From Psococerastis gibbosa (lineage: Eukaryota > Arthropoda > Insecta > Psocodea > Psocidae): a DNA stretch of 64,000 bases. Below the pieces are notes generated by a model. The model was not told the DNA's origin, searched no databases, and was given only the letters and a program-made list of their open reading frames with translations. Made by a program: the position numbers and the translations under genes. Location: NCBI GenBank assembly GCA_963971405.1, contig OZ020486.1:20855419-20919418 (forward strand), read 5' to 3'. Of the stretch, positions 6,191 through 51,000 are shown piece by piece (within the stretch, counting starts at the first letter, position 1; the number at the start of each line of letters is the position of its first letter).

Positions 6191-7861
6191 TACGTCCATA
6201 AAAATAATATGATGATTCATGCGTTTCAAAAGTACTACTATCCTTCTTACTTCGAAGCATTAGGAAGAAGCAGACAATGTTACGCCATCCATCACAATGT
6301 TCCCAAAAATGACACAAGCATTTGAAAGATGAACGCTACGAACTAAACAAACAATTAAACAGTTGCAATAAGAAAAATATAGAATGGCCTAAAACAGTCT
6401 ATTAAAATAGATATTACACCTAATTGAAATTCTTAAATATTGGATAGATTGATATTGACATGTAGGAAACGCTAGTGAATCTCAAAGGGCTTTGTCAAAT
6501 CAAATCTTACTGATATTGCCCGAGGCATAAATTGGTAGAAGGTATATTTTTTATAACAAAATAGGCTTTTTAGCCGTGAACAGTGTATAATTATATATAT
6601 ATACATTTTAAGAGGAATTGAATGGGTTAGAAGCCAATATGAACAAGTGCTGTCAGTCTGATTTCAAGAAGAACTCACTCGAAGTCTGATTTAACGGTGG
6701 GCAATATTTGCAACACCTTATAGATCGACAACTATGTATGAAAGAGATATACCGTTGCTGCTACAACAGATTGGCCCTCGAAGATTCTCATGGTGCACAT
6801 ATCTCGAAAAGTAAAAAAAAAAAATGTCATGTGTACAAATTGGCTTCTAATCCATTCGATTGGTATCAGCTTCAACCTACAGCTAATGATAAGCCCACTG
6901 CTAGTAGTGGCATACCGTAGCGACGTTACATGGCCCTATTGTCCAGGTTCCTTCAATTAAGGCAGAGATTTACAAATGTTTACAAATTAATTATTTTTTC
7001 GTTCCTCAATCCTCAGCCTTTCAAAATATATTATGAACATTTTAATGAAATATTTGTAATAATACAAGCTTTTGAAGTAAATTTACAATTTCTGATCTGA
7101 AATATTTATATATATATATAATTTTCTTATTAAACACGATAAATTGGATTATGTACAGATTTTATAGAATAAGTATTATAAAATTGTGCATTAATGCCAA
7201 CCCAGGCACTAAGTACTCTATGTAGATAAAAGCTGTATTTTTTATGAATTTTTATTATGTTGTAACATAAACTGATCCTAGTATTTTAAAGGTTTGTGAG
7301 TATGGAAGGATTAATTAATTAATTTCTTCAAAATGACTACATTTGTTTACAAAAAAAACTCTGCCTTAAGACAATATTTTACCGGGGTTTCAAAACAAAG
7401 TTTATAAAATTCAATAACCAAACACACTTTAGGTAAATCAGAATGCCAAAAAGGTTGGCATGGAAGATAGTGATCCCAATTATTGCCAATTTAAAGTCTT
7501 GAAATAAAAACTAATTTGTCCATTAAAAATTGCAATCGCGTAAAACGTATCGCTTTGAGCATATTTTTGTTAATAAAAATAATAACGTAAAAGTTAATGT
7601 TAAAATCTATAAAGTGGACAAAAATGTTTTTTTTCTGCCAAATAAAAAAGCAAATGTTGGATGCTAAGCAGACGTAAGATGTTGATCTGCTCCTAAACTA
7701 TTCTAGAACGAGGCTATGATGAGGCTTAGTGAGGATATGCTAAACTTCTGCCTCGACAGTTGACCCTTCTCATTGGGCAATGAATAAAGCGGATAGGACG
7801 GGGAAAAGGGGAAGCGACATTGGAACGAAAGATCAGCCTTTTTTCTCCAGCACCCCCGGTG

Positions 7862-8006
7862 TCAGACATTATCAGGGCTTCCAGTGAATGAAATAGGTTG
7901 AGCGTTCTCTACCAATGAGTCCTTCGTTCCAGAACTTGTATGTACGTTGTTAGTGTCCGAAACAGATTTTCCTTTTGCATTGTTTTGCATCTCTTCCTGG
8001 GATGCC
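7862..8006 (-). CDS. fwe: flower alternative last exon, distal (ubiquitous-type C-terminus)
   Basis: A GTCTTTCAG acceptor precedes 8006. Joined to the phase-2 end of exon 5 (AA|G), it encodes K145, then [13 protein letters not shown], and ends [13 protein letters not shown]...DNV with TGA at 7862-7864. The NAQP-SFTG motif matches the C-terminus of the common Drosophila isoform, so this is probably the ancestral exon. It lies 1.3 kb beyond the proximal last exon, so using it means skipping that exon. Confidence 0.9.
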
Positions 8007-10544
8007 CTGAAAGACAATAATTAATAATAATTGACTTATATGAGACAACAAAGGATAATCTAGCCATGCCATCGGCATGCGTATGGTTGAATTAAGGCCA
8101 TTTTACATGAGACTCAAAAGAATGAGAATTTTCTAACTCTTTCTTGTCTCGCGTAAAACTCTAATTCAGTAAGTAAGCATGCTCCCTTACTAGCCCTTGG
8201 AGTTAAATATAGAAAAAACAATAATAATAGCCGCTGATGAATCAAATTTTCAGAAGAGAATGACACATGCTGGCATACATCAAAACTATAAGTTGAGTGC
8301 TCACTATTCTACAAATTCATAACAGTATTGATAAGAAGCAGGCATAATAATTGTATTTCGGGGAAATGTTTATTTGTAGCTTTCTTCACATCCAATTGGT
8401 AGAGGCATAGTGCCGGCATAAAATTGCAGGCCGGCCCAAAGGTAAGAAGGTCAGCTTGATAAGGGGTTGCCTCCCCATAGTAACTATCTCCATAATAAGG
8501 AGTGTAACTATTTTTCCGTTTAAGAGCAAATCGAACCTTTTGCACCAAGTCAAATTTCTCATGACATATCGATTGTAGAGCCATAAAGCCTAAAGGCCGT
8601 CATTAACACCGATCAGCCCCACTTTTTGATATTAATTTGTAGACAATTACACTGACAATGTCAGGTTCAAGAAGTTCCACAACTGTGACCAATTGCTGCT
8701 AGTGGCCACGTTATGGCTCTACGACTTCATGAGAAATTTGAAAGTGAGGGAGTCCATTTGCTCTTATCGGATTTGTCAAAGTTGCTGGTAAATAAGAGTC
8801 ATCTGGTGTGTTGTGCCTCGCCATCCTAGGGCCGCGGATTGAGTGGATTATGTGGCCAAATTCAAGATCCTCTCAGTTCACACTGCAATCTAAATACTGT
8901 CTTATAAGGTCATATTTATAGCTTGTAGAAACAGCGATCCTTGTTCGAGAGTTGGTAGTTGGCAGGGGGTAACAGCTGTGCTAAACAAACGTGTCACCAG
9001 ACAATGTGAAACCTCAGTTACAGTAAGGCCAAAGACTGCACTAAGAGCTACCGAACCCAACACTGGCCCAGGCCTAATAATTTTTTTTATTATTATCTTA
9101 TTGTCAAGAGCAAGAGACGAAACAGATTTTCAAAAAGGCGGTGATTGTAAAATAAATTTATGTTAATAAGGCATTCATCAAAATACACACGATCCAAACT
9201 ACAGTATATAGGGCAAAAGAAAGAAACTCAAGCTAAAATGGGTGCAAACACGTAAACTGTCAGTAGACGTACGGCTGAGGCCGGGGGTGCAGGTGTCCCA
9301 CGCCTGATTATTTAAGTTGGGCGCCAAACGTCGGGGTCCTCCATAAGGGTAACGTTGTGGTCAGGAGGGCCGCCGCTCTGCGGAGAAGTCAAGCCCTGCT
9401 GCGGTGTGGCCATCGCGGCCATGTCGTCACGTGATCCTCTGCACAGCCGCACAAAAATATCTCACACCGGTTAGCCATCAAAACAGTTAAGACACGACAC
9501 TGCATTTTAAAATAAATCTACCCTACTACAGCGATTTATAATACATTTTCAAATCTTGATAATAGCATGGATTAATATGAGCTTAAATAACGGCACTGAC
9601 AAGGAAGAATTTAGTTACAGTTAAAATTATCACACATACAGTAAACAATAACATGTTCAGCTAACAAAAACTTGGGATCATTTATCCAAATACTTAAATA
9701 AGATTATTAATATATTGCCACAGCAGTAAGTAGCTGCATTATTTAATATCTTGATAGGTTGAATATGCAAAATGACACACCCACACCCATGGACGGATAT
9801 GGGGGGGGGGGCAGGGTGGTAGCTGCTCCCCAAAAATTTTTTAAGTTAATTTATTACGCTATAATTTAATCGATACTACAGGTTTGTTCTATTTTGACCC
9901 CCAACTACCCCCCCCCCCCAAAAAAAATGGGCTGGATCCGTCCCTGGCCAGAACCTCATGCTATTGTATGGGAACATTCAATTTTTCATAAACTGAGTGC
10001 AAAAGATATCTGATACGGTAAGTTAGTGATTTTCTTTTTCTTTTCTAATTATTTAATTGACAAACACATTTGGCCCCAGCCTAGTGCCATTGCTTGCTGC
10101 AAAGACTACAAAAAATCGTATTAGTATGAATTAAAATAAGCGTGAGGAACGCCCCAAACCATGCTATGACTCTTATGTATAAACGCAATACTTACTTTTT
10201 GCCCAATGACATCAGGCCATATAAGACTCCTGTACCGAAGATGAGTCCGCTTCCAAGGAAAGTACTGAAGCCAAAACACATGAACACAGGAGGTATTGCG
10301 ATCCTGGGAAAGTAAGCGTTCAATCAAAATATTTAGTACATGTATGATGAAGGACAAAGCTGTCATAAGGCAGCCGACATCGCCAATAATAATGCATAGG
10401 AAATCAACAACCACTCATATCCAATATAGGGTTTCTCTCGTGACTTCGTGGAAACGAAACATTATTATTAACATATTGTGGTGATTTTTGGCTTTGTGGC
10501 ACCGGTTCAGTATAATTTGTTATGTTTTTTTAAATAAATACACG

Positions 10545-10601
<57 letters not shown>

Positions 10602-13209
10602 GTGTAAAGTATTAAAATCAAACAAATTTGCACAATTTCCACATAAACATATATATTGTTAAAAGTTATTGTTAAAGTTTTAATTTTTTAACTTTTAACA
10701 ATATATATGTTTATGTGGAAATTGTGCAAATTTGTTTGATTTAAGGCGGGGTTTCCACATACGTCAATGGTCAATGGTAAATATGGTTTTGACGTGGTAG
10801 CAGACATTTTTAGTCAATACCACATTTACCATTGACCATTGACGTATGTGGAAACAATGCTCTACAGCACACTACTCTAGAAGCCTATTAAATTTTTGAT
10901 AAACTTACTTTTTGATAAAAGTAAAGTAAATCAAGTCAATAGGTTTCTTTTTTGCACAAAGTCAAATTTCTCATGACATGACAGAGTCATAAATGAGATG
11001 TTATAAAGTAGAAGAAATTTCCCTCTTCATTTTAATATAGTATGTGACCGTGCCTTACACAGTTTTGGAGCTCCTTCAATCTGACAAGCTCAGTAACCGT
11101 TATTTTTTAACAAATCAAGTTCCATAATTTAGGCCAATCGGTACGGCACCATAATGTACATGAAAGGAATAAATTTTCTCATTTATAACACTTTAATTAT
11201 TGCTCTACGATCGACATATATCATGAGAAGTTTGACTTTGCGCAAAAAATGAAAATTGAGGGCTCCATTGGCCCTTAGGCGGGGTTTTCACCGACCGGTT
11301 AGGGCTAAATACAAATACGGTGACGTGGTAACAGACATTCAAGACTTAGGCGGGGTTTCCACCGACCTCGCATTGCAGAATGCAAATGACATTGACGGAA
11401 ATTTTTGTTTTTCTTTTAATAGAAATCGATTAAAATGTTCGTTACTAACATATCCCATGACGCAATTTTTTAATTTTAGTTTGTTTGTTTGTGATTTTAC
11501 TCTATGTTCATTGATCAATTTTAACTATGACATGGAGTAAAACAAACATTTCCATCAATGTCATTTGCATTCTGCAATGCGAGGTCAGTGGGAACCCCGC
11601 CTAAGTCTTGAATGTCTGTTACCACGTCACCGTATTTGTATTTAGCCCTAGCCGGTCGGTGGAAACCGCGCCTTAATAGCAAGGGAAGAAAACTTACCCA
11701 ACATAGAGCGCTCCGCGATGCCAATATTGCAGTTTTTCAAATCGGTCACTCAAAACTGATACAAAGTCAATAAAGGCGCAACAACAGGGAGCTTCTGCCA
11801 CCAAAACCAAAAATCCGGCTAACCTGAAAAATGATTTAATCAACTCAATTATAGCACGAGGGGATGTGTGTGTGGCTTGTGGCAAGGGTAATTGACGGGC
11901 ATTATAATATAATTCATAAAAATTTTATTTTTTATTTATCATTTAAAAATACTTTTAAATAAATAAAAAGTTAGGCCTACAACAAAAATACGATTTTAAT
12001 ATTCATCTGTCAGATAGATAATACGGTTGTAGTCATTTGCTACAAGACTACGTCATTTTCTCAACTTCTGTTCCATAAAATATTTGTATCTACTTGTATA
12101 CAGGCAATTTTCATGCATAACTTATACATGTGCCTCACACAGTTACGGTACTTAAGGAATATTATGATTCGTCTTCGTTATTTAAAAACATCGCTTGGTT
12201 TTCTTCCTCGCTATTATCCCTAAGAAGGGTCAGCCCGGTCAGCGATGCGGCATAGTGATTTAATTGGTAAAGGTGTAGTTCAGCTAGTCTGCTACCCCTC
12301 ATAAAATCACAAAATGAACCCTATATCGTTGATTTAACTTTAAAGAAACTCATTTCCGAAAGAATTAAAAGTTGGAAAAGTATAGTTTTTGAGTTGCAGC
12401 CCAATTTAGTTCGAATTTTTGCATGGGCAGGTATAGGGACAAATTGCTCATAGATTTTTTTATGGAAGGAACATTGTCAGAGGCATGTAAATAATACAAC
12501 ACTTGCTTAAAATATGAATTCCCTTGCAAATTGGATGTTTTCCTTCCATATTAAACGCATTTTCATTCGACTTTTGATACAGTGGGGTAGCTAAACTGCA
12601 CCTTTACCATTTAATTTAAGTGTCGTGGTTCTTTTACTTAGCTAAGGCACCTTCTTAAGTGACTAGAACATATAATTTGTAATTGAATACTTACATTTGC
12701 CATACTCCTCCCACTAGGCAAGATACATCAGCCAGAATAATGCCCGTTGCTGCCCAGACTCCAAAAAATATAGCCACTAAAATGTAAAAGACGTAAGTCT
12801 GCAATTATTAATCAGAACATATTGTGCTAAACCTACATAATTCATAAATCTTTTGTTTACTCATTGACATAGGGGCCTAGACATTGTTTTGACAGCTCAA
12901 AAGATAAGATAAGCTTTATATGGCTCCTTATGGTCTCGCCATAGGAGCTGTAACATTAAGTAGCACGCCACCACAGTTTTCAATAATTAAACTATACTAC
13001 ATCACCTCCTCCTCCAACCGTGCCAAGACCCCTTGCAGCGTATTTCATCCACACAGAAACATCGTCTTTGTTGGCATCATCAGGCCTCCCCATCAACCCC
13101 CGTACTTTGTCTGTTAACGACTAAAAAAATACAAACATAAGCAATTCTAATTGCTAGGTCTCCATTTGAATACTAATTATTAAAAGAGAAATCAGTCAGC
13201 ACTTACCAT
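7862..13209 (-). CDS. fwe: Calcium channel Flower
   Basis: Exons are 13207-13209 (the ATG alone), 13006-13120, 12695-12776, 11698-11823 and 10196-10303, followed by one of two last exons, 7862-8006 or 9312-9438. All phases agree. The products are 192 aa (distal exon) or 186 aa (proximal exon). The protein is a four-pass membrane protein with hydrophobic segments at about 36-55, 59-78, 106-123 and 126-141. The VAEAPCCC motif carries Glu77, which aligns with the acidic residue proposed as the Ca2+ selectivity site in Drosophila Flower. In flies Flower is a synaptic-vesicle channel coupling exo- and endocytosis, and its C-terminal isoforms act as fitness marks in cell competition. The distal isoform, at 192 aa, is close to the usual family length. 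The start codon is separated from the rest by an intron directly after ATG. Its divergent neighbour is a NEK kinase. Confidence 0.95.
8542..8757. repeat. Foldback repeat between the two flower last exons
   Basis: The left arm AAGTCAAATTTCTCATGACA...GTAGAGCCATAA is mirrored by the right arm TTATGGCTCTACGAC...CATGAGAAATTT. Related arms occur at 10945-11255 and 36927-37090, and a single arm near 15365-15415, so this is a dispersed family. Confidence 0.55.
9312..9438 (-). CDS. fwe: flower alternative last exon, proximal
   Basis: A GGCTGTGCAG acceptor ends at 9439. The exon enters in the same phase as the distal last exon (AA|A) and encodes [16 protein letters not shown], then a Ser/Pro/Gly stretch, and ends DPDVWRPT with TAA at 9312-9314. 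KGSRDDM is reminiscent of KASQEEM in the distal exon, which suggests an old exon duplication or convergent function. A minus-strand AATAAA (9086-9091) lies about 220 bases after the stop, as expected for a terminal exon. It is clearly more GC-rich than its surroundings. Confidence 0.85.
9786..9946. mobile_element. Small hAT-like MITE with internal poly-G/poly-C
   Basis: The ends CCATGGACGGAT and ATCCGTCCCTGG are inverted. The right end read outward, CAGGGACGGATCCAG, resembles hAT-type termini. Internal G(10) and C(12) runs face each other. I see no clear target duplication, so the exact borders are uncertain. Confidence 0.5.
10196..10303 (-). CDS. fwe: flower coding exon 5 (third and fourth membrane segments)
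   Basis: This encodes residues 109-145, [13 protein letters not shown]...[19 protein letters not shown]. The acceptor is TTTCCCAG and the donor AA|GTAAG. It is the last common exon before the alternative C-termini. Confidence 0.93.
10546..10601. repeat. (ATT)n microsatellite
   Basis: There are about 18-19 uninterrupted ATT units in the flower intron, starting 16 bases before a perfect palindrome. Confidence 0.95.
10617..10740. repeat. Perfect inverted repeat, 52-bp arms, 20-base loop
   Basis: Arms 10617-10668 and 10689-10740 are exact reverse complements. They begin ATCAAACAAATTTGCACAAT. The loop is 10669-10688. This is either a very young foldback/MITE or a hairpin RNA locus. It directly abuts the MITE starting at 10745. 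Confidence 0.9.
10745..10853. mobile_element. Tourist/PIF-like MITE (family GGCGGGGTTTCCAC)
   Basis: The left end GGCGGGGTTTCCACATACG follows TTAA. The right side mirrors it up to GTATGTGGAAAC but has lost the final CCCCGCC. The centre contains the family motif TGACGTGGTAGCAGACAT. A much better preserved copy lies at 49197-49331. Confidence 0.75.
10945..11255. repeat. Foldback repeat in the flower intron
   Basis: The left arm GCACAAAGTCAAATTTCTCATGA is the imperfect complement of the right arm TCATGAGAAGTTTGACTTTGCGC, with about 200 bases between them. It belongs to the same family as 8542-8757. Confidence 0.55.
11278..11672. mobile_element. Composite palindromic MITE, nested structure, with TTA target duplication
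   Basis: The outer element runs from GGCGGGGTTTTCACCGACCG to CGGTCGGTGGAAACCGCGCC and is flanked by TTA on both sides (11275-11277, 11673-11675). An inner GGCGGGG...CCCCGCC element occupies 11349-11601, placed at the symmetric centre of the outer one. The outer arms carry GACGTGGTAACAGACAT. The right border lies about 20 bases inside the intron from the flower exon 4 donor (11697). Confidence 0.8.
11698..11823 (-). CDS. fwe: flower coding exon 4 (EAPCC motif)
   Basis: This encodes residues 67-109, including [17 protein letters not shown] with the channel Glu77 and WHRGALYVG. The acceptor is TTTTCAG and the donor GG|GTAAGT. Confidence 0.94.
12695..12776 (-). CDS. fwe: flower coding exon 3 (first and second membrane segments)
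   Basis: This encodes residues 40-67, [12 protein letters not shown] through VGGVWQM. The acceptor is TACATTTTAG and the donor AT|GTAAGT. Confidence 0.93.
13006..13120 (-). CDS. fwe: flower coding exon 2 (cytoplasmic N-terminus)
   Basis: This encodes residues 2-40, [13 protein letters not shown]...[16 protein letters not shown]. The acceptor is ATTTTTTTAG at 13121. The preceding exon supplies only the ATG (13207-13209), followed directly by GTAAGT. Confidence 0.92.
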
Positions 13210-13775
13210 TGTAGAAGATAAAACTTTAAAATATTATTGAGCCGTTGTCAGCTGTCATCAGCACTTAGCGTCTTCTGCTAGTTGCGCGATTCATATTCGA
13301 TTGATCGAATGTTTAAAAGCGCGCGAAAACTGAAAACTTTACTCGACTTTAAAGGAAATTGATTTTTTCTTTTAAATTATCTAAAATGGATTAAAATTTG
13401 TTATTTAAATGAAAATATTATACTTAACTTTTGGTTGCATTGACTACACCGTACTATACGTTTTTTTTAAACCTTATTTTTAATTCCGCAACTGATACAT
13501 AGCCTAATACACTGTAATACACTGTGTACGGAGTATAATAAAATAATAGGAATGGCCAAACCTACTCCGCTTAAACCATATTTATTAAGTAATTGGAGTA
13601 AAAAATTTAATTGTAATCATCGCAATTATTCTGAACAGTAAATAGCAAGCAGGAACTTAATGTGACACCTATCTGATTGGGTTGAGGTTAAATCGAGGCT
13701 ATCCTATTGTTACTGTAGTAACCAACACACAAACATTACTGAACTTGCCCTTGTGAAATCTGTTCTGTGTTCAAT
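13210..13775. promoter_or_regulatory. Divergent promoter interval, flower / NEK kinase
   Basis: Only 566 bases separate the flower ATG (minus strand) from the kinase ATG (plus strand). The interval must hold both 5' UTRs and both transcription starts unless upstream exons exist. I see no convincing TATA box in the expected places. A shared bidirectional promoter is inferred from spacing alone. Confidence 0.5.
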
Positions 13776-16700
13776 ATGTCTGACCAGGAATTCCTTGAAC
13801 TTACCAGAAGATCACTGCAAGATGGTCTGTATTCATCATTATCGGATTTTGTTGTTGATGGAAAAATTGGCAAAGGACAGTTCAGTGTTGTGTATAAGGC
13901 TCGATGTAAGGCAAATGGGGCAACGGTAGCTTTGAAAAAAGTTCAGATTTTTGAAATGACTGATGCAAAAGCTCGTTTGGATTGCATGAAGGAAATCAAT
14001 CTTTTACAGGTAAAGTACATATGTACGGTAGAGCTATCAACCTGGAACCTTGCTAATCTGTTGGCCTTTTCAACATGCAGGTATTAATTTTAGTTCATTC
14101 AGAAATATGAAAGGCGACAGCCAACATACGGGTATGGGTGCTAAAACGCAGGTGCATATAGGTACCTACGCAGCCTAATTTGCAACATAGTAGGGCCTAC
14201 CGTAAACCAAACCTTTCTTCTTTATCATTCGCAGCATTTTGGTCATTTTCTATATCCATTCAAAATTAACTACATACATCCAAAAATCCAGAAGCAAGAA
14301 AGGATTCTATCCAACACAGGACTGGGCTTTGTGACTTGTTGACTGGCACCGAGGTATCATACCGTACTGTATTATTTATACCGTATGCTACCGTACCTTT
14401 CATCTAACCCCATCAATTTCAACGGGTCAGGAGACGTGTGCAGCAGTACCTAGTGTACCCCTTTTTATGCATTTACTTGTGCTGCCTATGGCTGTATTAA
14501 AAAACTGCTTAAGTAAGGCAATCACCTTTACACATAATTAATTAATTATAATTAAATATATATTTTAAATAATTAATTTATTTCAGCAACTTAACCACCC
14601 AAATGTTATAAAGTACTTGGCTTCATTTGTTGAGCACAATGAATTGCACATTGTTTTCGAATTAGCTGACGCGGGAGATCTAGCACGTATGCTCAACTAC
14701 TTTCGTCGACAAAGGAGGCTAGTGGCTGAACGAACTATTTGGAAATATTTTGTACAAATTGCTTCAGCGTTAGAGCATATGCACAGGCAGCGTGTTATGC
14801 ATCGAGGTAGGTGCCGTAGCAGTTGTTATAGTAGAACTATGCTGAGTTCTTCATTCATCACAGCAGAAAAATCACGGTAAGTTGGGTGAGGCATACTGTG
14901 CAAGTACTATACGAACAACAATCTTCTAACAAATTTTATTTATATATACGATGCACACTTTCGGATATATCATTTGCCCGAAGACTGTTTATCGCGTAAC
15001 ACTTGCGCAGTAGGTATGCCTCGGTGAATTAACTTACCGCGATTTTTCTGATGTGACGTATGGCTCTACTCAGTGTAGTTTTACCATGTATCGTGCGATC
15101 ACAATTATTCAATTAAAATGCACTTAAATTGCTCATGTGACAGGCGCATTAGACCTGCACTCATTGCCGGGTGGGATTGGCTCTAAACATGTAGTACCGT
15201 ACCTAAAGGATATTGGATGGATAATGGATGTTCTACAGGTAGACCACAGAATACTATGACATATAGCCACTCACTAAGGAGGCTATAAAGTTAATTTTCC
15301 ACTTCCAACTTCCGTTTTGATTAGCATTCCAATCCAATCCTTATACATAAATGTAAATAACAAATATCTCATGAAATGTCAATTGTATAGCCCTGTCAAA
15401 AATATCAGGACAAACTGAAAAAAAATTTCTGTGCATTTTGATGTAGCCCATATATATTCTCAGCGAACCCTCCTCAATCAAATTATATTAATTTATTCAC
15501 CACTAATCTTACTCTTAAAATTGTACTCTATCCACCATTTTAAGTAAGATAGCACCGAAATATTATGCCTTGTAACAATCTGGCTTCCAGTTCTTCCATT
15601 CTTACTGGGGCGAAAGGCCACATAACAGGTATCGAAACGTAGAGGAGCATTTCAGCTAATTTAATGAAGGCTCAACCAACGATCTTTGTACAGAAAAAGC
15701 GTAGTGGGGTACACAAATTTGGTCATTTAACGGGATTTGAAATCACGCCTTTTTTTTCAGACATCAAGCCAGCAAACGTTTTTGTGACGGCAACAGGTGT
15801 CGTAAAACTCGGCGATCTTGGCCTTGGGCGCTTCTTCAGTGCGAAGACTATAGCGGCGCACTCTTTGGTGGGGACGCCATACTACATGAGTCCAGAGAGA
15901 ATTCACGAGCACGGGTACAACTTCAAATCTGATATCTGGTCCCTAGGATGTCTTTTATACGAAATGGCGGCTCTTCAGAGTCCTTTCTATGGAGACAAGA
16001 TGAACCTGTACATTCTCTGCAAGAAGATTGAAGTATGCGATTACCCCCCTCTCCCCTCAGATCTTTATTCTCGTCAGGTAGACACCCACATTACATATAG
16101 GTAGGCTACATAGCATATATTTCATCAGGATCTGACACCATAAGGCTGTTTTCAAAACTATAAGAAACAAGATTTTGCCTTTTGGTCGAGTGTATTTAAT
16201 TTTTCATTCCACCATTATGATATATTTTGCGTTTTATGTAGCCTATGTACTATATACGTACAGTACGTCCGCACCTATCTACGAAGTCAACAGTACAATA
16301 TGAAGTTTCTCTCAAAATGCTGAGCTTTTTTTTAAGCCGAACTATTATGTAGCCTATCATTCTAATAACTACCTATCTACCTACTTTACAAATGAATTTA
16401 ATAATTTTTTTTATTTAAAAATAATAAATAAATTACAAGAAAAATCGAAGTTTTAAGAAAGAAAGAAAGAAAAATGTCTTTATTTTCAATGTGGGCGAAT
16501 TTTGGGACTTTCGGCCCACTCTTACAATTAAAAATTTACAATTTACAATCCAAATCAATGGTTATAATATATAATATATGTAGATATCAACACCATGCTG
16601 ACTTTTAATATTGTCTCAAAACTCTCTTTACGGTTAACTACACTACTCAATGTAATGCCAATGCAAAGAATGTCATTATTTGCTCTTTTGTTTTCAGCTT

Positions 16701-39000: not shown

Positions 39001-42000
39001 AACGTAAGTAAGCCATTGCTATCCAATTTAATCTTTGTAGACGTTTTTTATAATTTCATTACATACTGTAGGGTTGGGAAAATTGATATGGGTCGTATGA
39101 CCTTACAATTATTGAGTATTATGTTGGTTTTAAATACCCATACTTTCTGGATTTTCCGTATTTGATAATTTACTAAGAGCTTACCGGTTGCGATGTGTAG
39201 GAACCGGGCGAGGAGGGGCTCTTGACTGCAGTCTCGCACTGCATCAGCGACTTCTGGATGGCATTGATTGCCATCCTCTCCTGAAGCTGATCCTGCTGGT
39301 AACACGTTTGGTTGGGCGGCTGCGCCTGGTCCATCTGGTCCAGAAGGTGTACGAGCTGACTCGAGTCATTACCCTCAGGTACTATGTCTATGACTTGATC
39401 CAGGATGTCCGAAAGAAGGGGGTCTGACGACTCCCACGCTTGATTCAGACTGTTCTGGCCACGCTCCAGTAAATTCTTCACTTGCAGATTCTGAAGCATT
39501 GCAAATATGGATTCAGATTCAAATAACAGCTCACGAATGAAAAGGTAGCTTTTTATATAATTTTTTTTGCACTTATGAAACAGACTTTCATGGAGGTAAA
39601 AACGAAAAAATAATGCAAGTCCCTGCACACCAAAAGTTTCTATGAATAGGAACGCAAAAGGGCTTGCTCGTCAAACGGTTTTCATATATTTTCAAGAGCA
39701 AGTTTGGTGACACAGTTTTGTTTCTTGCTTGCAAAATTTCAACTTTCCATAATAATTATTTTAATCACAATCAAATCATCAATACCATCAAAATTAAAAT
39801 TAAGTTACCTGCTGTTCCTGGTGCTGAGCCAGTAGGGGGTTGAGGAACTGGTTTCCGGTTGGCCGCTGGGGTTTGCCGGGATTGGGGATAGTGGGTCGGC
39901 CAGGAGTCCCAGACGTCTGGATATTTCCACCAGACCAAGGTGCACCTACAACAAGACAGGATTTCGAAAAGAGAACATCGCCGATAAGCTTAAAGCGATA
40001 CAACAGTGTAACTAAGATAATAGATTTCATTCAAATTTTCCTTGTAAGACGCCCTTGCTGATTAAAATAGTGAAAGTTATTAATAACTTATTAAATATTG
40101 TAATAAAGTTGTTTCTTGCTTTGCAACAAGCCGAAACCAATGCATGATGATGTACTTACTTCCAGGAGTCTTGACCCGCTCAATTTTGGGAAGTTTGTCC
40201 TGAGGTGTCGCTGAAATGACGGAGGTAGGAATAGGCGGTATCGCAGTGGCCTTGGGGGGGTCCTTGGCCAGCAGCTGAGCCAACATCTTATTCTTCTTGC
40301 ACAACTCACTATTGCCACTCGATGTCACTTGCTGTAAATATTGTAAAAAATCAGAATTTAAACGTCGCTCTTTATATTAACTAGGGACAACAAGAATAAT
40401 AATTTGATTATTTTCTATTTCTCGAATTATAATTTAACTTATTCCTTAGTATTATTACTAAAACATGGTATCTATAAGCCAAGAATTCGAAACAGAAAAC
40501 GACTATATTAACAATGGAACGGTTTCATTACTTCCACAAAATTAATAATTCCTAGGTTGCTAAGGCTTTAAATTTTTACGCACATCAAAAGAACGTAAAG
40601 GCTGAAATTTAACTTGATTTGGCTGCAAAAATTGGCTTTATCCGGTGTCAAAACCAAATGGCGTACTCAATTTCAACTGCATATGAGCGTATCTGCACTG
40701 CGCGAAATGTGCACGCACATGATAGGTGTGATGTGAGTACTACTCACCCTTGAAGAGCCACTGTCAGGTGGCCGCTTCCCTCCAGGTCCTCCTCCATCAG
40801 ACTCGTCACTAAGTCTCTTCCGGCTTCCGATCATCGACGAAATGCCTTCTGCAACTGGAGGGGACGGCGTAGCATTCGAGAAACCTAAACTCTTTAGAAG
40901 AGTATCTTCTTGCTATAACAATACAAAATGTTGTTTATGGACTTGGACAGAAAGGATAAGTAACCAAAAACCTCACGAAACCAACTCTACATTAGCCTAA
41001 TTTCTCGTGGTGATAATTGCAGGCTCGTCAGACTAATACGAATAATACTATAGTAGACATGCGCCTAAGAAGAAAACATTTTATTAGTGAAGTAATTTCA
41101 AATGAAGATCATTAACACAGTAATTTTGCAAATTATTCCTACAGTAACCCCAACGTAGAATATTAACAGTCTGCTGAATAACGGATTCATTTACAATAGA
41201 AATGATAATCTCGATGCGCGTCCGAACTCACCAGTAAGTAAACACATTGGCAATGCTGGGGAAGAGATAACGGAATAAAGTTCAATAAGTAATCATGAAA
41301 TATCGGCTTGACTGAATTGTAATATGCCGACCTTTTGTGACCCACTCGATAACGCTAGTCTACACTGTTTCGACTATTGCAATTTTCTGAGACCGATCAT
41401 TCGTGCATTTCAATTAATGCATAGGTTTTTTACGCATTATTGGGTATTATTTTTATGCACTAATAATGAAGCATTTCCTGCTTTAATTTAAAGTAAGAAG
41501 AGGAATTGAATAGACAATTGCCCGGTTATATCCTCTGTACGCTACAAATTGTTTCCTGGAGTTATTTCTATTATTAATCGATTTAAGAGTTATAAGCGGG
41601 TCTGAAGTTGGCAGCAGTGAATATCTATCTATACTGTTCAAGGATGTTGTATTTAACTGGATGCATAACACTATTACTGTAAGCTAAACATAGGCGATAA
41701 TTTTTTTTCAAATTAAAGATTCAGGCAGCCATTTAATAACTAATAATAATAACTAATATCTTCATTACATGTCTACATAGCCTTTCCCGTTCTAGGTCTC
41801 TTTTTTAAAAATAATTTGAATTTGAAATTTGAACTGTGAAAACATTGCAAATGGCCGCGGGATTGCTGCCGACTGGTAGGCTGTTGCGAGTCCATATATT
41901 TATATGTCCATGGTACTGTTAAACTTACCTGGCTGTTCAGTGGAGAATTTAATTTCCTGTCTTCACCTGGATCCTTGAGGAGCTGGTGGAGAAGTTCATG

Positions 42001-45000
42001 TGGCTTCTTCAGACCGGCACGGGATTCGACTTCTTCGTCGTCGTTCTTGTCATTTAGTAACTGCAAACATAACACCGTTTAGCTAATATTGCAGTATAAT
42101 GTCCGGCATATTATTGCTTTCCTATTTATAAGTTAGTATAAGGAAAGATGAGCGAAAAATTCGTTGTCGAGATTTCAGTAGATTTACACGTTTCGAGGCA
42201 CAAGGTCATCGATTTGTGGGCAAACTACTCGGTGGGTTTTGTATCATTATGCATGTAGGTTCACAGAAATCATATCTCGCGACAATTGTTTTCTATTTAT
42301 TTTGGGCTAACTCAATTTTGGAGGGTTTTACCTTTCAAAAACAAAACAAAAAAAGTTTTCCCAAAAACGCCCCAAAAATTTTTCTTGTAATTCACATATA
42401 TTGTAGTTTTATAAAATGATTAAAAAAAATAAAAAAAACAGTCGCTTGACCCTTCATAGTTTGGTTCTGAAGGCAAAAATAAATATAAACAACTCAAGTT
42501 ACATTAAAAATGACTAAAAAATAATTTTTAAACCCTTTTTATCAATGCTTTCTGACTTCAGGTGTGTTTTAGGAGTTAAATAGAGTAACAAAACCGAACA
42601 GGTAGTTTTCCCAAGCAAAGTTTTGGTTGTGAACAAATAATAATTTTTTGAAGAAATTATGGTTAATTCATGCCTATCGACGAATTCAGCGCTTTGGGAT
42701 AGGGAAAGTTAAGGCAACCAAAATTTAACCAAATGACTATTACTTACAATGGAACTACTTATAGCGTCTGTCTCGGTACCTATACAGATAAATAGGAAAG
42801 CATGTACGGGTTCATTCGTAACTGTTCTTGTTTACTTGTGATTGACTTTACTAACCTTTTTTGGGGGAAAGAGGTCTATAAAAACAAATGACATTTAAAT
42901 TTGGTTCTAATAGCGCATCAAATTAAAACGCCTTATTGAAGATTTAAACTCAAATATTTAATCCATGATCTTCCAGAATCTAGATCAAAAAGGCATTAAT
43001 GCATCACTGTAAATTAATTATTGTGCTACAGTCGGTTCAGCCCTTATGTGAAAGAAAATCTCAGATTACTCAGTATAATGTACCTTAAACAAGGCGAGAA
43101 CTGTAAACATATTCATCAATAGTATGATTTCACAAAAGGCCCTTTCCGACGAACAGACCTTACCCAGCCACTAAGTGTAGGGGGAGGTTACCCCAAAAGC
43201 TTATAGTGAGATAAGCTCCCCTTCAACTTAGTGGCTGGATAAGTTTCGATGGTCGGAAGCGGCCCAAGTGTCCAAAATTAATGACTTAAAATGAGGTGGC
43301 ACTGGAAATAGAAAGAAATCCTCACTGCTATCGTATTCGCATTAATTTATTTGCACCAATTTTCTCAATGCGTTATTCACTTTCTTAATTTCATAGGCCT
43401 AGTTACTTTGTATTTTAGTGTAGTACTCTAGTATTATTGGATTTACCTTGAGCAGCATATGATTATGGTTATTATTGTTATTGTTGTTGTTATTAATCGG
43501 AGGTGTCTGGGCGGCGTTAGGCAAGCGAGCGTTCATGGAGCGACCTCCCTCCTCCTCCTCTTCTTGGTTAAGGAGACCTTTGAGTATCCGGTGCTTGTTC
43601 CGCGGCTCGTTTTCTTCTTCGTCCACACTACTTCGTTGCGTCAGCAGGTTCCGCAACCTACCCGACTCCTGCGGCTCTTCTCGCACGTCTTTCTCTTCTT
43701 CTTGCAAAGGAGAGAAGGGGAACGCAGGCGCTGGAGAAGAATATGAAGGGACACTGGGAGGCCGGGGCGTCAAGCTGTTTCGCGAGTCAGGCCCTCCCTC
43801 AGTGACGTCCCATGTAGATGTGGGAAAGAACTCAAAGTCAGAAAGGTTGATTTCGTAGTTGTATGACTGCTGAGTTCCACTAGATGGCATCGAGACGCCA
43901 CCATTACTGCCAGACATGAGGGGGCCTCCTAGTGAGTTGGTGGACGGCGGCGAAGTAACTATTGAATCCGGAGAAGAAATATCTTGTTCCCTGAAAATGA
44001 TAGCAGCAATGGATTTTCATTCATAATAATGAATCAGGACAAAACTTATCTTGCTTAGTTAACTTTATCATCGTTTTGCAAATCAAAACAAAAATAGTCT
44101 AGGCATATCTCAACAAGACTATTATTGTTAATGTTGAAGGAGTTTTTACGGACGTGCAGTGGCCCATTGAACCTTTCCCTGCCGAGCGACCCCATCGGTT
44201 TTCGGATATTATTGTTTTTGTTTTTATACGCAGGATATTTAACAATACATACCCGATAATAGAGTGGGTAGCCATTATGAAGTCGGGCTCTTGCATAGTG
44301 GCGTTGCTTTTGAATAGTTTAGATACAGTCTTTACACGAATGAATTTCTCAGAAGAGCCCACCCGAAGTCGGTACAAAGCGCTCGTACTAGTTCCAATGG
44401 TTAGTGTCTCTTTCAGGTGAGTCGACAACTTCTGCAGGTCCAGCGGGTGGCACATCTCTTGGATGATCTGACCCATAAGATCCTAGACACCAAAAAAAAA
44501 CAAGTTATCAACCGAAAAGCTATCCACAGTAAAAAAAAAAAAAAAAAAAAATTACAATATTACACACCTGCAGAAAATTGGTGTTCACTTCTCAACAACA
44601 ACAAAATGTATCGACGGTAGAATATAGGGGTCAGAAGCGGCATAAGGAATTCCCCGATTGGGAATGATTGAAGTGGCATTTCGAATGATAGTGAAGACAA
44701 AAAAAGCTATCTGCCTATCCCAAGGATCTTAGACAATAATACTTGTGGCATACCTTATTAAGGTACTGTGAGTAGGCGGCGGAAACGCCGAAGGTATCGA
44801 TGCCGACAATCTTGCCGCTGGTGTCGAGCTTCATCGAGAATTGCTCGATGGGCGTGCCGACCGACTTCTCGTTCTGCGGGATCTTCCTGGCGACGCACAT
44901 CAGACTCAAGTCCCCGGATTCGGAAGTCACGTCGTCCCCGTCACCCTTGTCCTTGCTCAACTGAATCTGTAACATACCAGGCCCCATGAGAAGACTTTTT

Positions 45001-48000
45001 TCCTTTGAACATATATATATATATACACGCGGTTCCTGGCGCTGCTGCTGCCTCCGCCACTTGCGCCAGCCGCGGGCGGCAGCTCGGCCCTCGGCCTCGC
45101 GGTCACTGCTCATGTAAATTAATTGTGGTCACACAACACACACGCAGCACCAACTGTCGGGATCAACGAAAATTAATGGTAGCGCAGTCTGCCGCTAGAT
45201 GTCAGTTGATGTCGGTTGGCGGTGGTAGCGCCAACTGTCGGGATAAACGAAAATTAAATGTAGCGCAGTCTGCCGCTAGATGTCGGTAGTCTGCCGGATC
45301 CAATGTAAAATATTCCAAAATCAAATTATAAAAACATTCTCCAGTGGACGAAAGTGTTAATCTAAACCATCCTCGAATCTCCTTGAACACACACAACAAT
45401 ATTCATCATAATCGGTCCAGTCGTTTGAGAGGAGTTTGGATTCATACACACGGACAGTCGAAATATATATATTAAGATATATATAGTGTGACACATTTTT
45501 GCTGATATTAAGAGTCTGAATGATTAAATATTGTCTATTTTCCATCGGAACACCAAAAATCAAGTTTCATAGGGAAATTTTGAATGTAGAGCCAACAATG
45601 ATGTCATATACATTAGAAGAAAAGTTCCTTTACATTTATAGGATAAGATATATAGGATGTTGCATGTTACTACAATGTAGAGGGACATTTCTTCTTATGG
45701 ATGTTTCTTCAAATACATTACCTGCGAGCACTGAATTTGCATGTTCTCGTATTTAGACACACGTTGCTGTTTCTCCTCCATAGTCGCTTCCAGCTCATTA
45801 GGAGGTTTCACCAGCAGTCGACAGTCGAACGTCTTTCTGTTAATTTGGGGGCTAGGATCGTGTGGCCAATCTGCAACCGAGAGTCACATTAAGTAACTAA
45901 TCCGAGCCTAAAATTGTATATGGCCTATGACATGCGGCCAGAGTTGCCTTTTAATTGTAGTTGTAGGCCAACAGCAGTTAGCATCATCATTCTGATTATG
46001 AGCCCTCTCTCAGTAACAGTCCTCATGTCAAATATTTGCAATACCACTCTTCGGGAAGTAACCCACACACTAACCAAACCATAACATGGTGGAGGAATCA
46101 CGGTTATTAAATATTACTTATTGACTATGGTTAACGAGCAGTTATAGACAATTTGGTGAGATTAGTACAGCTGTTTAGAAGTTGTACGATAATGGTAATA
46201 GTTTGAGGATTTGAATAAAAAAACATTAATTAACAAGTTTGTGAATTGACAGCTCATCGAAAACTACCTTGCGGTTTACTACGAAATGGCAGAGCAGTTT
46301 ACACGAGTGTAATGGTTTCACCCCCTAATCCGCCCCTGCCTGGGCTGGGGTATTCAATAGGTTTCTCTCCCAACCCCAGTCCTCAGGCTCTTCAGTGTCC
46401 CTCTAGTACGCGGCGGTGAGACACACACACCTTACAGTGCTTACACATACACTTATACATCTACACATGTTCTACTTCAACTGTCGAGACGCCGCGGACC
46501 AAATACGGTAAGGTTCATCTCAATATTAATCATATACAGTCCACTAATTCATATAACCATCGAAGGCGAGTGGTACCGCCACAACGAGCAATAGGGGGAT
46601 AGACAATTAAGGCATAATACATAATATATTGGGATGGTCACCTTTTCTTATCCTCAATTCGATTCTATTACAAGAATAGATCCTAGAAGCATGGTGGAAA
46701 GTTAAAAAATGAATAGACAATACTTACTTAAAGACATAGGGAGGAGACTAGAACTGAAGCGAGCATGGTCGCCGTGGTGAATAAAATTGTAGATACTTTT
46801 GCCATACACTTCCTCGCGGGAGAATTTGATAAACTGATGAACGTTTTCCGTGACAAACTCGATTTTTCCTTCAAGGTTCACGACAAAGAGAAAGCCGTCA
46901 AGCGCTTCCAGGAGCAGCGGGCCGAATACCTCGTTCCTCAGCACAGTCGGGTTTGAGGAAGACACTTCACCCTGCTGCACAGCTGCATCACTTCCACAGT
47001 GGTCTTGTTGCTTAATATGTCGAATCTGCAACAACATTTTCAATAAATTAGATTGCGTTTAGGTCACTACCTACTTCAAATTAAAACACAAAGAAAGTTT
47101 CACTCTGCATTGGGAAGTGGGTCTTCAATGCATAATAATAGTAAATAGTAAATACTTAATACTTACTACTACTATACAGCATTGAAAACCCAATTCATTG
47201 CATTGAGGTTTCTACTAAAACGCTGCTGACTCTTTTCAGCCAGCCATTGAAGATATCAGCAATTGCAGTCGAAGCGTTTAGTACATCAATTATTATCAGA
47301 CCACGCCCCATCAAAATTATAAAATTACACGCTCAAATAATACATTACATTACAAAGCTTCGTAGCCACCGATTGGTTCAGTCACATATTGTTCCAGAAC
47401 TGACCATATAGGCCATTTTACAAGTACCTTACAGGTGTTTAGTTTTGCAATAATGAGCCTATCCGTTAGATCACGAACGCTCAACTAGTACACAACATAT
47501 ATGATGTATATACCAAAACCCATAGACAATTGAAGATTGCCTCACGTGGCAATGGGATTAGTAAGAATCCTGTTTTCAAAATAAAATAAATATCTAGAGT
47601 ATCGAAGAAGCTTGTGAGGGAGTTCAAAAAATTGCCACCAAAACAAACTCGCTACAACAAAAGAAACCACTACCCGAGACCACAAATAATCCCCAAATGG
47701 CGAATGCACACAATCTGAATAAATTTTATTACCATTGCCGCCCATAAAAATCAAATTTTTCTTTTTTACAGACGCATAGATGGAAAATACAATACGTAAA
47801 AACAATGAAATATATACATTGCAACCACATTTTTATGAATGCTTCAGACGAAATTACAGTCAATCTGCATAAGTGGTCGCATACAAAGTATCAGAAAATA
47901 CCCTGGATTTACACTTAAATGTCCGGATGCACACGGATACGTGGTGATATTACTGAAATACTGCCACAGCTTAAATTTCGGCTAGAATATGAGTATAATG

Positions 48001-51000
48001 GTGGTTTTATTCAATCAGCGGCTGACTTCGTATGTGACGTCACTGAGAACTGCAAGAATGCATACCAAGCGGTAGCGTTTGCCCAGGCAGGTAAAATGGG
48101 CTTCCGCAGCTCAGACAATCAACGATTCGGCAGTTAAGACAGAGATTAACCGGGAGGTTCTCACCATAAGCCAAACATAGTGAAAATTAATTTAGTAAGA
48201 TCACCAGGGACATAAGGTCAAGGGTGTAGAACTTCTGCACCCACAATTCTGTTGTCAGCCCTGGCTGATGGATTGGTCATTTGTTTTTCATTTTCCAATA
48301 TTTTCTGTTTTTTATGTTGGTCACGTTTCCTTTGACCACATTTTTGCCATTTCCTCCTACGTTTCACCGCTATCTGCCACACTTAGCAAATGGCTAGGCA
48401 CCATCTATTCTATTTTATTATCTTTGGTTTGAGCATCTATCACTACTAAAAAACTGAATTTTTTTCTGTTAGACTAATGTAATGACTGATTTAATTTCTT
48501 TGCCTATCAAACTAGTCCAATTAGTCCTCTGTAGATGGCAGTTCTTGACGAAAGCGCTGAGTTTTATTTTTACTAACACAAGTGGTTTTTTTTAGACAAA
48601 GTTAATTTCTTAACGATTATTTGGGTTTTACTAATGCGGGTTATAGTTATAACACGTTTTTTTTTTTTTTAATTAGTCCAACTTTGAAAGATGTTAAGTC
48701 TTTAATCAGAAACAATTAGCCCGACAATTGTCAAAGTGACACGCTCAAGAAACAAGAGAACGTCTACATTCTACAAAATATAATAAATAACCTCCCCTGT
48801 AATCATCATCTTCAAAGAAATGCAGCCTATTATAATAATAATAAATCCCGTACTGTCTGATGTTGCTACAAAAAGAAAGCAAGGTCACATCGAGTTTGAA
48901 CAAAGATGTTATACAGGATTACGTTATGGATAGTTGGTGGCCACTGATTAATTACTATTACCATTCATAACGACTATACAAAATCGTAAGAACCGTTTTT
49001 GAGAAAACAGTTTCTCGAGATATGATTTTTATGAACCTGCATGCGAAATTTACCCAAAATCCACCGAGTAGTTTGCCCGCAAATCAACGAACAGACAGAC
49101 AGACAGGCAACCACTTTTTTTTCCTGTGACCACAAAACGTGTAAACCCACTGAAATCTCGATACCGAACATTTCGACCATCGCAAAGCTTACCTTAGGCG
49201 GGGTTTCCACATACGTCAATGGTCAATGGTAAATATGGTTTTGACGTGGTAGCAGATATTTTTAGTATGTCTTTAATGTCTGCTATAACGTCAATATCAC
49301 ATTTACCATTGACGTATGTGGAAACCCCGCCTTATACAAACTAACGTATAAATAGGAAAGCAAAAAATTACCTATTCAATAACGTTTTATTTGGGATTGG
49401 ATTATTTAGCCATATTTCTCTCGGAAGGATTTTTTTTTTTATTAGTCTTCGTATCTTAGGGGTAGATTTCATGCGCTGCGTTAATAGGGCCCATTGTGGG
49501 AATGACTAATTCAGTTCACAGTTCACCAATCTGAGAGAGGTTGCTAACTGACTTCCTCTTACCTAATTGATGAGTAACAATGAATCAGTATGGAATGGCT
49601 TCATTGCGATTGTTTTTGTTACCGGAAACTGGCATTACCTTCACAGGTACCTTCCTCCATCTAATAATATTCGCGATGTTTTCAAACATATGTTGCAAAT
49701 GACTAATGCAGTTGCACGTATCCTCCGCCCGCACAACGGCAGGAGTGACCTTAATTTCTGACATGATAACCTCTATTCGCATCAAACACACGTTTTAAGC
49801 AACGTCAGACCTTGCAGATACCAAGCCTATCTGTTAACTATACTCTACTTGATGCTGGGATACAGAAAAACTTACACAAGTGTAGTTGTACAAACTAGAA
49901 AATGCCTGTGTTAAGCAAGCATTCTGTTGCTTTGATTGGAGTTAGCCAGTAGACAATTATTCCAGCTTCCAAGCAAAGAGTTCTGGATAAAACCAGCGGA
50001 TGTCTGAACATCAATGTTGACAGAAACATTCTTCAAACTTAAGAGTTTACAGCCCGTAGGAAATTGGCAATTGGAAATTTAATACTTTTTATTTTTTATT
50101 GAATTAACTAAGCATGATATTAAAAATTTTGCTCATTAAAGTTGTAGAAGACTACTTCATGCATCATATAATAAGATATTTTTAATTTTCGAAATGTAGT
50201 TTTTTTCATAAACATGATATGATAAACAATAACTTTTTACGTATAATCGATTTAAAAAAAAAATACAATTTCGAAAACTAATAATATACCTTATTATATG
50301 ATGCATGAAGTAGTCTTTTACAACTTAAATGAGCCAAATCTTTAATAACTTGCTTAGTTAATTAAATAAAAAAATAAAAAGTATTAAATTTTGGGCTGCC
50401 AATTTCCTACGGGCTGTAATCTTAAAGAGGCGATCAAAATGGAATAAAAGCCTTAGAGTGAATGATATGAGTAATGGTGTATACTGTATATTTTGAAATA
50501 CCAACAATATTAGAGAAGAAAAACACAACTTAGGTAAACGTGCTTTAACTTTAAGATAAATTTAGCTGCTGAGATAATTATACGCTTGAAAAACTCCCAT
50601 CGCTTAATTTATTGTAATGGAAAATGAGCAAATATTTTGATCTATGCAGAAATAATGAGTTAATAATTAAATCCATCATTTAGGTTACTTACCCATTGAC
50701 ATAGAAACATTCACTGCGAATCAGCCTTGAACTACCAAATTGCACGAACCCAAAAAACCTCTCAAGATAACCACGATCAGTTCACATGAACCACAGATTT
50801 GAAGGTCAATTCAAAGTAAAACAATTAAAGAACTTTTTGGAATTAGAACAAGCACTTCAGAACAACAGAACTAATGAAGGAACAAATGCGACTTTAGGTA
50901 AAATCAAAAAAACACCAGTAAATAGTTAAATGGAGCGGATAAGTAGCCCAAGGCAAGTGAACGGGTGTAAACTATACGATATTTCATAGCAATGGTGGCG

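Follow-up and report, generated by a model that had tools for sequence, protein, structure and literature searches.

flower and its neighborhood

The window, that is, the whole stretch of Psococerastis gibbosa DNA that we analyzed, is 64 kb long, and all positions given here refer to it. On its minus strand lies a gene that, judged by its predicted protein, is flower (CG6151-P), running from 13209 to about 7250. Five common coding exons, all on this strand, add up to 434 nt, corresponding to 144 codons plus AA. Exon 1 (13207-13209) contributes the ATG alone and ends at the donor ATG/GTAAGT. Exons 2 (13006-13120), 3 (12695-12776) and 4 (11698-11823) are each defined by an open frame and splice sites; for exon 2, position 13006 was alone among the five candidate donors tried in leaving the frame open through exon 5. 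Exon 5 (10196-10303), the last common exon, ends in phase 2 at the donor AA/GTAAGT.

The gene can encode two full proteins, which differ in their C-terminal tails. Both match the Cg6151-P profile of Pfam (PF10233) with E-values of 4.4e-27 and 4.7e-27 (95 and 94.9 bits), and both exceed the curated cut-off of 29.2 bits. In each protein the match spans residues 33-145 and profile positions 1-113 of 113. The match (E 4e-27) bears out the name given to the gene in the initial annotation. For comparison with the fly we used a provisional row of the Flower core; it agrees by eye with the primer pieces described below, yet has E at the published K95. With this provisional row the whole protein shares 40% identity, and residues E77 and Y107 of the core align with fly E79 and Y109, numbered as in PMC11655906. 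Hydropathy analysis merges the helices: stretches above 1.6 overlap over residues 35-92, with another at 104-126, a profile compatible with tails on either side of the membrane. Solved structures gave 25 matches (E 0.27-0.48), nearly all to the ribosomal protein eS24, which we took as chance. A scan of the 64-kb window with Rfam gave no matches.

Intron 4 of flower is rich in repeats. A foldback element at 11264-11686 has 151-nt arms that are 91% complementary and lie 121 nt apart, and it contains four GCGGGGTTTCCAC-like motifs. In the same intron, two inverted repeats adjoin each other at 10615-10742 (54-nt arms, 100% complementary) and 10734-10872 (60-nt arms, 83%), beside an AAT-type microsatellite at about 10545-10600. 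The window holds eight matches to GCGGGGTTTCCAC at two mismatches or fewer, compared with 0.61 expected. The motif recurs in inverted orientation at 49198-49330, 133 bp from end to end, and this copy likely belongs, as a short form, to the same family (foldback or MITE-like) as the element at 11264-11686.

Head to head with flower, on the plus strand, are protein kinase exons (PF00069) at 13743-16104, the first of them below the curated cut-off, which look NEK-like by eye. About 0.5-0.6 kb separate the first kinase ORF from the flower ATG, which suggests a common promoter region. Farther away, minus-strand exons with PAS domains extend over 39173-47058 (PF00989 at 46702-47058, PF14598 at 44099-44482), and near them are ORFs that matched no Pfam profile; in one of these, LxxLL-like motifs are visible by eye. 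We take this region to resemble a taiman/SRC-type coactivator. A plus-strand exon at 1191-1553 encodes a FERM central domain (PF00373), with a KRIT1/FRMD8-type match below the cut-off.

Two last exons behind one donor

The phase-2 donor at 10196 fits two acceptors on the minus strand, at 9438 and 8006. Joining to the proximal last exon (coding part 9312-9438) gives a protein of 186 residues with the tail KGSRDDM...DVWRPT followed by a stop, and joining to the distal last exon (coding part 7862-8006) gives one of 192 residues with the tail KASQEEM..., likewise closed by a stop. The choice leaves the membrane core unchanged and determines the 41 (proximal) or 47 (distal) residues after K145. The initial annotation had described two phase-matched last exons joined after K145; its coordinates are right and both tails are open, with the correction that the junction sits inside codon 145, whose final base is supplied by whichever last exon is chosen. 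Other continuations of the transcript were rejected: retention of the intron past the 10196 donor gives K145 followed immediately by a stop, and an alternative proximal acceptor at 9436, two bases further, yields a tail of merely KIT.

An open frame in the right phase is weak evidence here, because long in-phase tails are common: 20 of the 159 AGs in 10195-7000 open one of at least 42 residues. A first-order Markov control of 200 sequences gave a mean of 11.6 such AGs (range 1-30). The proximal acceptor has a branch-like CTAAC motif that begins 36 nt upstream. The statement that the proximal exon has its own poly(A) signal holds insofar as an AATAAA is present at 9091 (9086-9091, minus strand), 221 nt past the stop; a further AATAAA occurs at 8374, between the proximal stop and the distal exon, and the candidate signal of the distal exon lies at 7251-7256 on the minus strand, 606 nt past its stop. 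Each hexamer by itself is weak evidence, since we estimate about one per kb in DNA this AT-rich.

Correspondence of the tails to fly isoforms

Li et al. 2020 (PMC7748424) list primers from which coding pieces of the Drosophila isoform Fwe-B can be read. A terminal DVWRPT is encoded by their reverse primer for the APEX2 fusion, and EDMAAAATSPTQMAGSQAG by the continuation of their K146A/K147A/R150A primer. The latter piece aligns to the proximal tail with a score of 37, equalled in 1 of 5000 shuffles, and to the distal tail with a score of 18, equalled in 1751 of 5000. DVWRPT scores 38 against the proximal tail, with none of 5000 shuffles as good, and has no match in the distal tail (3812 of 5000 shuffles as good). 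In all six frames of the 64 kb, this hexapeptide occurs once, in the proximal exon and directly before the stop. At the nucleotide level, the final six codons differ from those of the fly primer at four third positions, all silent, and the eight codons of the piece containing EDMAA show one silent difference and two residue changes. On the provisional fly row, K146, K147 and R150 of the fly fall on K144, K145 and R148 of the proximal form.

From these comparisons, the proximal tail is homologous to the Drosophila Fwe-B/LoseA tail. The isoform is named Fwe B in PMC7748424, and PMC10366549 states that Li et al. worked with Fwe-LoseA; by that account Fwe-B and LoseA are the same isoform, and the proximal exon is LoseA-like. 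The exact DVWRPT together with exclusively silent change in its six codons we read as selection on the peptide, which would amount to protein-level constraint on an alternative tail between Drosophila and a distant relative. Among the findings that would refute its own reading, the initial annotation had listed a proximal exon that is not conserved in related species. The exon is conserved, in a comparison with a single further species, Drosophila, whose sequence was taken from primers, and the reading is not refuted on this count. Because the proximal tail ends in the six residues of a fly isoform, the pair of tails appears to be both genuine and ancient.

The distal tail resembles a provisional fly tail, NAQPFSFTG, that we attribute to UniProt Q95T12. 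The alignment of the two scores 59, with none of 2000 shuffles as good, and the proximal exon scores 16 against the same provisional tail (305 of 2000). By elimination this would make the distal exon the probable counterpart of fly Ubi, which we treat as a lead. The third fly isoform, LoseB, ends in KHIFLVRNYI according to a knock-in primer read in the mCherry frame (PMC6315112). These last 10 fly residues, which were all that entered the comparison, are unlike either tail in Psococerastis gibbosa, and a search of 10195-7000 for such an end gave best scores of 21-22, in frames that have no other support, and no clear match. Of the three fly tails, the pair in the initial annotation accounts for two at most.

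The position of the switch also corresponds. The common core ends inside codon 145, equivalent to fly 147 in the alignment with the provisional row. In PMC11655906, the fly isoforms are described as identical to residue 146 and different from 147 onwards.

Proposed use and origin of the two tails

From the exons, frames, splice-site consensus and tail homology described above we infer how the gene may be used: flower in this species very probably has two mutually exclusive last exons, a proximal LoseA-like and a distal, probably Ubi-like one. The strong donor at 10196 would join the proximal acceptor at 9438, and the transcript would end in the first 3' UTR; if the proximal acceptor and poly(A) site were passed over, the same donor would join the distal acceptor at 8006. 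In the simplest model, proximal splicing and cleavage would compete with skipping to the distal exon. The most likely function would be to supply two versions of a single protein of vesicles and plasma membrane, with a constant core; as in the fly, these versions would differ in trafficking, endocytic partners or signaling by tissue.

Drosophila Fwe-B is also the isoform that was cloned for work on synaptic endocytosis (PMC5393565 and PMC7748424). In mouse T cells, endocytosis was rescued by fly Ubi only, and not by LoseA or LoseB, in the experiments reported in PMC11655906; therefore, the tails matter in endocytosis as well as in competition assays. Speaking against the reading, alanine at K146, K147 and R150 of Fwe-B left the fly synaptic functions tested unimpaired (PMC7748424). 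Tyrosine is absent from both tails of Psococerastis gibbosa, which excludes from either of them an AP-2 motif built on tyrosine, such as the human YARI.

By analogy with what has been proposed for Drosophila epithelia, the tails could instead serve as fitness marks, the distal Ubi-like tail denoting a fit cell and the proximal LoseA-like tail a loser, a reading that we regard as possible but rather unlikely. The homology of the proximal tail to fly LoseA (primers of PMC7748424, label of PMC10366549) would fit such a role, as would the reports of LoseA and LoseB as loser marks in the fly (PMC8277968 and PMC4313366). However, LoseA forms part of the ordinary condition of healthy neurons in the fly (PMC6315112), so that the meaning of the mark is cell-type specific, and fwe loseA, fwe loseB and azot were not raised in low-Myc cells (regenerating discs; PMC12752512). 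In the same study, discs heterozygous for loss of fwe showed a global decrease in cell death. A mark would have to be displayed outside the cell, and on this point the work summarized in PMC10366549 is in conflict: two sets of fly experiments put the C-terminus outside, whereas mouse and human data place the tails in the cytosol, and fly-lipid work also speaks against outside display. The initial annotation had called fitness marking by Flower tails established in Drosophila; it has indeed been reported there, but with conflicting topologies it is less settled than that wording implied.

The model that we prefer, with both last exons in use, would be mistaken if only the distal exon were much used and the proximal one were a relic that is seldom spliced and persists by chance. 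Scored with a provisional, generic acceptor matrix, the distal acceptor does outscore the proximal one (3.54 and 2.07, the 98th and 93rd percentiles of 314 AGs), but the latter in turn outscores two of the four common acceptors, whose scores are 1.27, 0.93, 3.15 and 5.19 and whose percentiles are the 89th, 90th, 97th and 99th. Since its percentile falls among theirs, the proximal acceptor is within the normal range of the gene. The proximal coding exon has a GC content of 0.622, compared with 0.385 in the remaining intron; 0.9% of the 127-nt stretches in the 64-kb window reach 0.622. Within 13209-7000, each of the 47 stretches of this length that do so overlaps the proximal exon, and this confinement of high GC within the gene, like the exact retention of DVWRPT and the restriction of changes in its six codons to silent ones, argues against a relic, which we consider highly improbable. 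Although the count of AGs given above shows that phase-matched open tails of such length arise readily, an origin of the proximal frame by chance from a GC-rich intronic stretch has next to no probability and is in our view refuted by the fly primers, since the fly isoform tail is matched near both ends, down to the exact C-terminal hexapeptide and stop.

We speculate, with considerable doubt, that the ancestral flower code was two-lettered, with Ubi-like and LoseA-like tails that would have arisen by tandem duplication of the last exon before the split from the fly, and with LoseB added later. Two observations may point this way, the head that the tails have in common and the search of 10195-7000, in which no end clearly resembled that of LoseB. 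Both tails begin with K-x-S-x-[DE]-[DE]-M, and over the six residues after K the heads score 14, a value matched by 683 of 200000 random draws for a stretch that was chosen post hoc. The provisional fly tail fits this head, as does fly LoseA as far as the primer shows. Over their whole length, the proximal and distal tails align with a score of 24 (43 of 2000 shuffles as good), though in a best alignment that is shifted out of register and so lends no support to duplication. If the two-letter code were true, Psococerastis gibbosa would be a species that lacks the neuronal loser letter LoseB, the mark of unfit neurons in the fly.

The isoform studies drawn on here concern fly, mouse and human, and the present gene offers a non-fly setting in which roles of the tails in fitness comparison and in endocytosis could be tested against each other and the LoseB tail could be dated. 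Among the titles and abstract openings listed, no paper on flower isoforms of other insects was recognized, which is no proof of absence, and four tail strings had no literature match. Pattern searches for flower relatives gave 4 and 43 matches in a collection of viral contigs and 77 in one of genome contigs, none of them confirmed; insect DNA is not expected in either.

Among known relatives, FLWR-1 of Caenorhabditis elegans takes part in the recycling of synaptic vesicles. For this family member a single isoform is predicted (PMC12092002), in contrast to the two tails of the flower gene described here. Human and mouse CACFD1 (FWE1-4) also belongs to the Cg6151-P family and has alternative C-termini. 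In two of the human forms an exon within the membrane core is skipped as well, and a C-terminal YARI site is present in two (PMC11655906), whereas both tails of Psococerastis gibbosa lack tyrosine. The closest counterpart is flower of Drosophila melanogaster (fwe, CG6151), which likewise combines a common core with last exons that differ from one isoform to the next (knock-in study PMC6315112). The fly has three isoforms (Ubi, LoseA/Fwe-B and LoseB), and two last exons were found here; the proximal tail corresponds to that of LoseA/Fwe-B, with its K146, K147 and R150, its EDMAA and its terminal DVWRPT. Because alternative last exons of flower were already known, we regard the locus as the fly arrangement again and not as a new kind of system.
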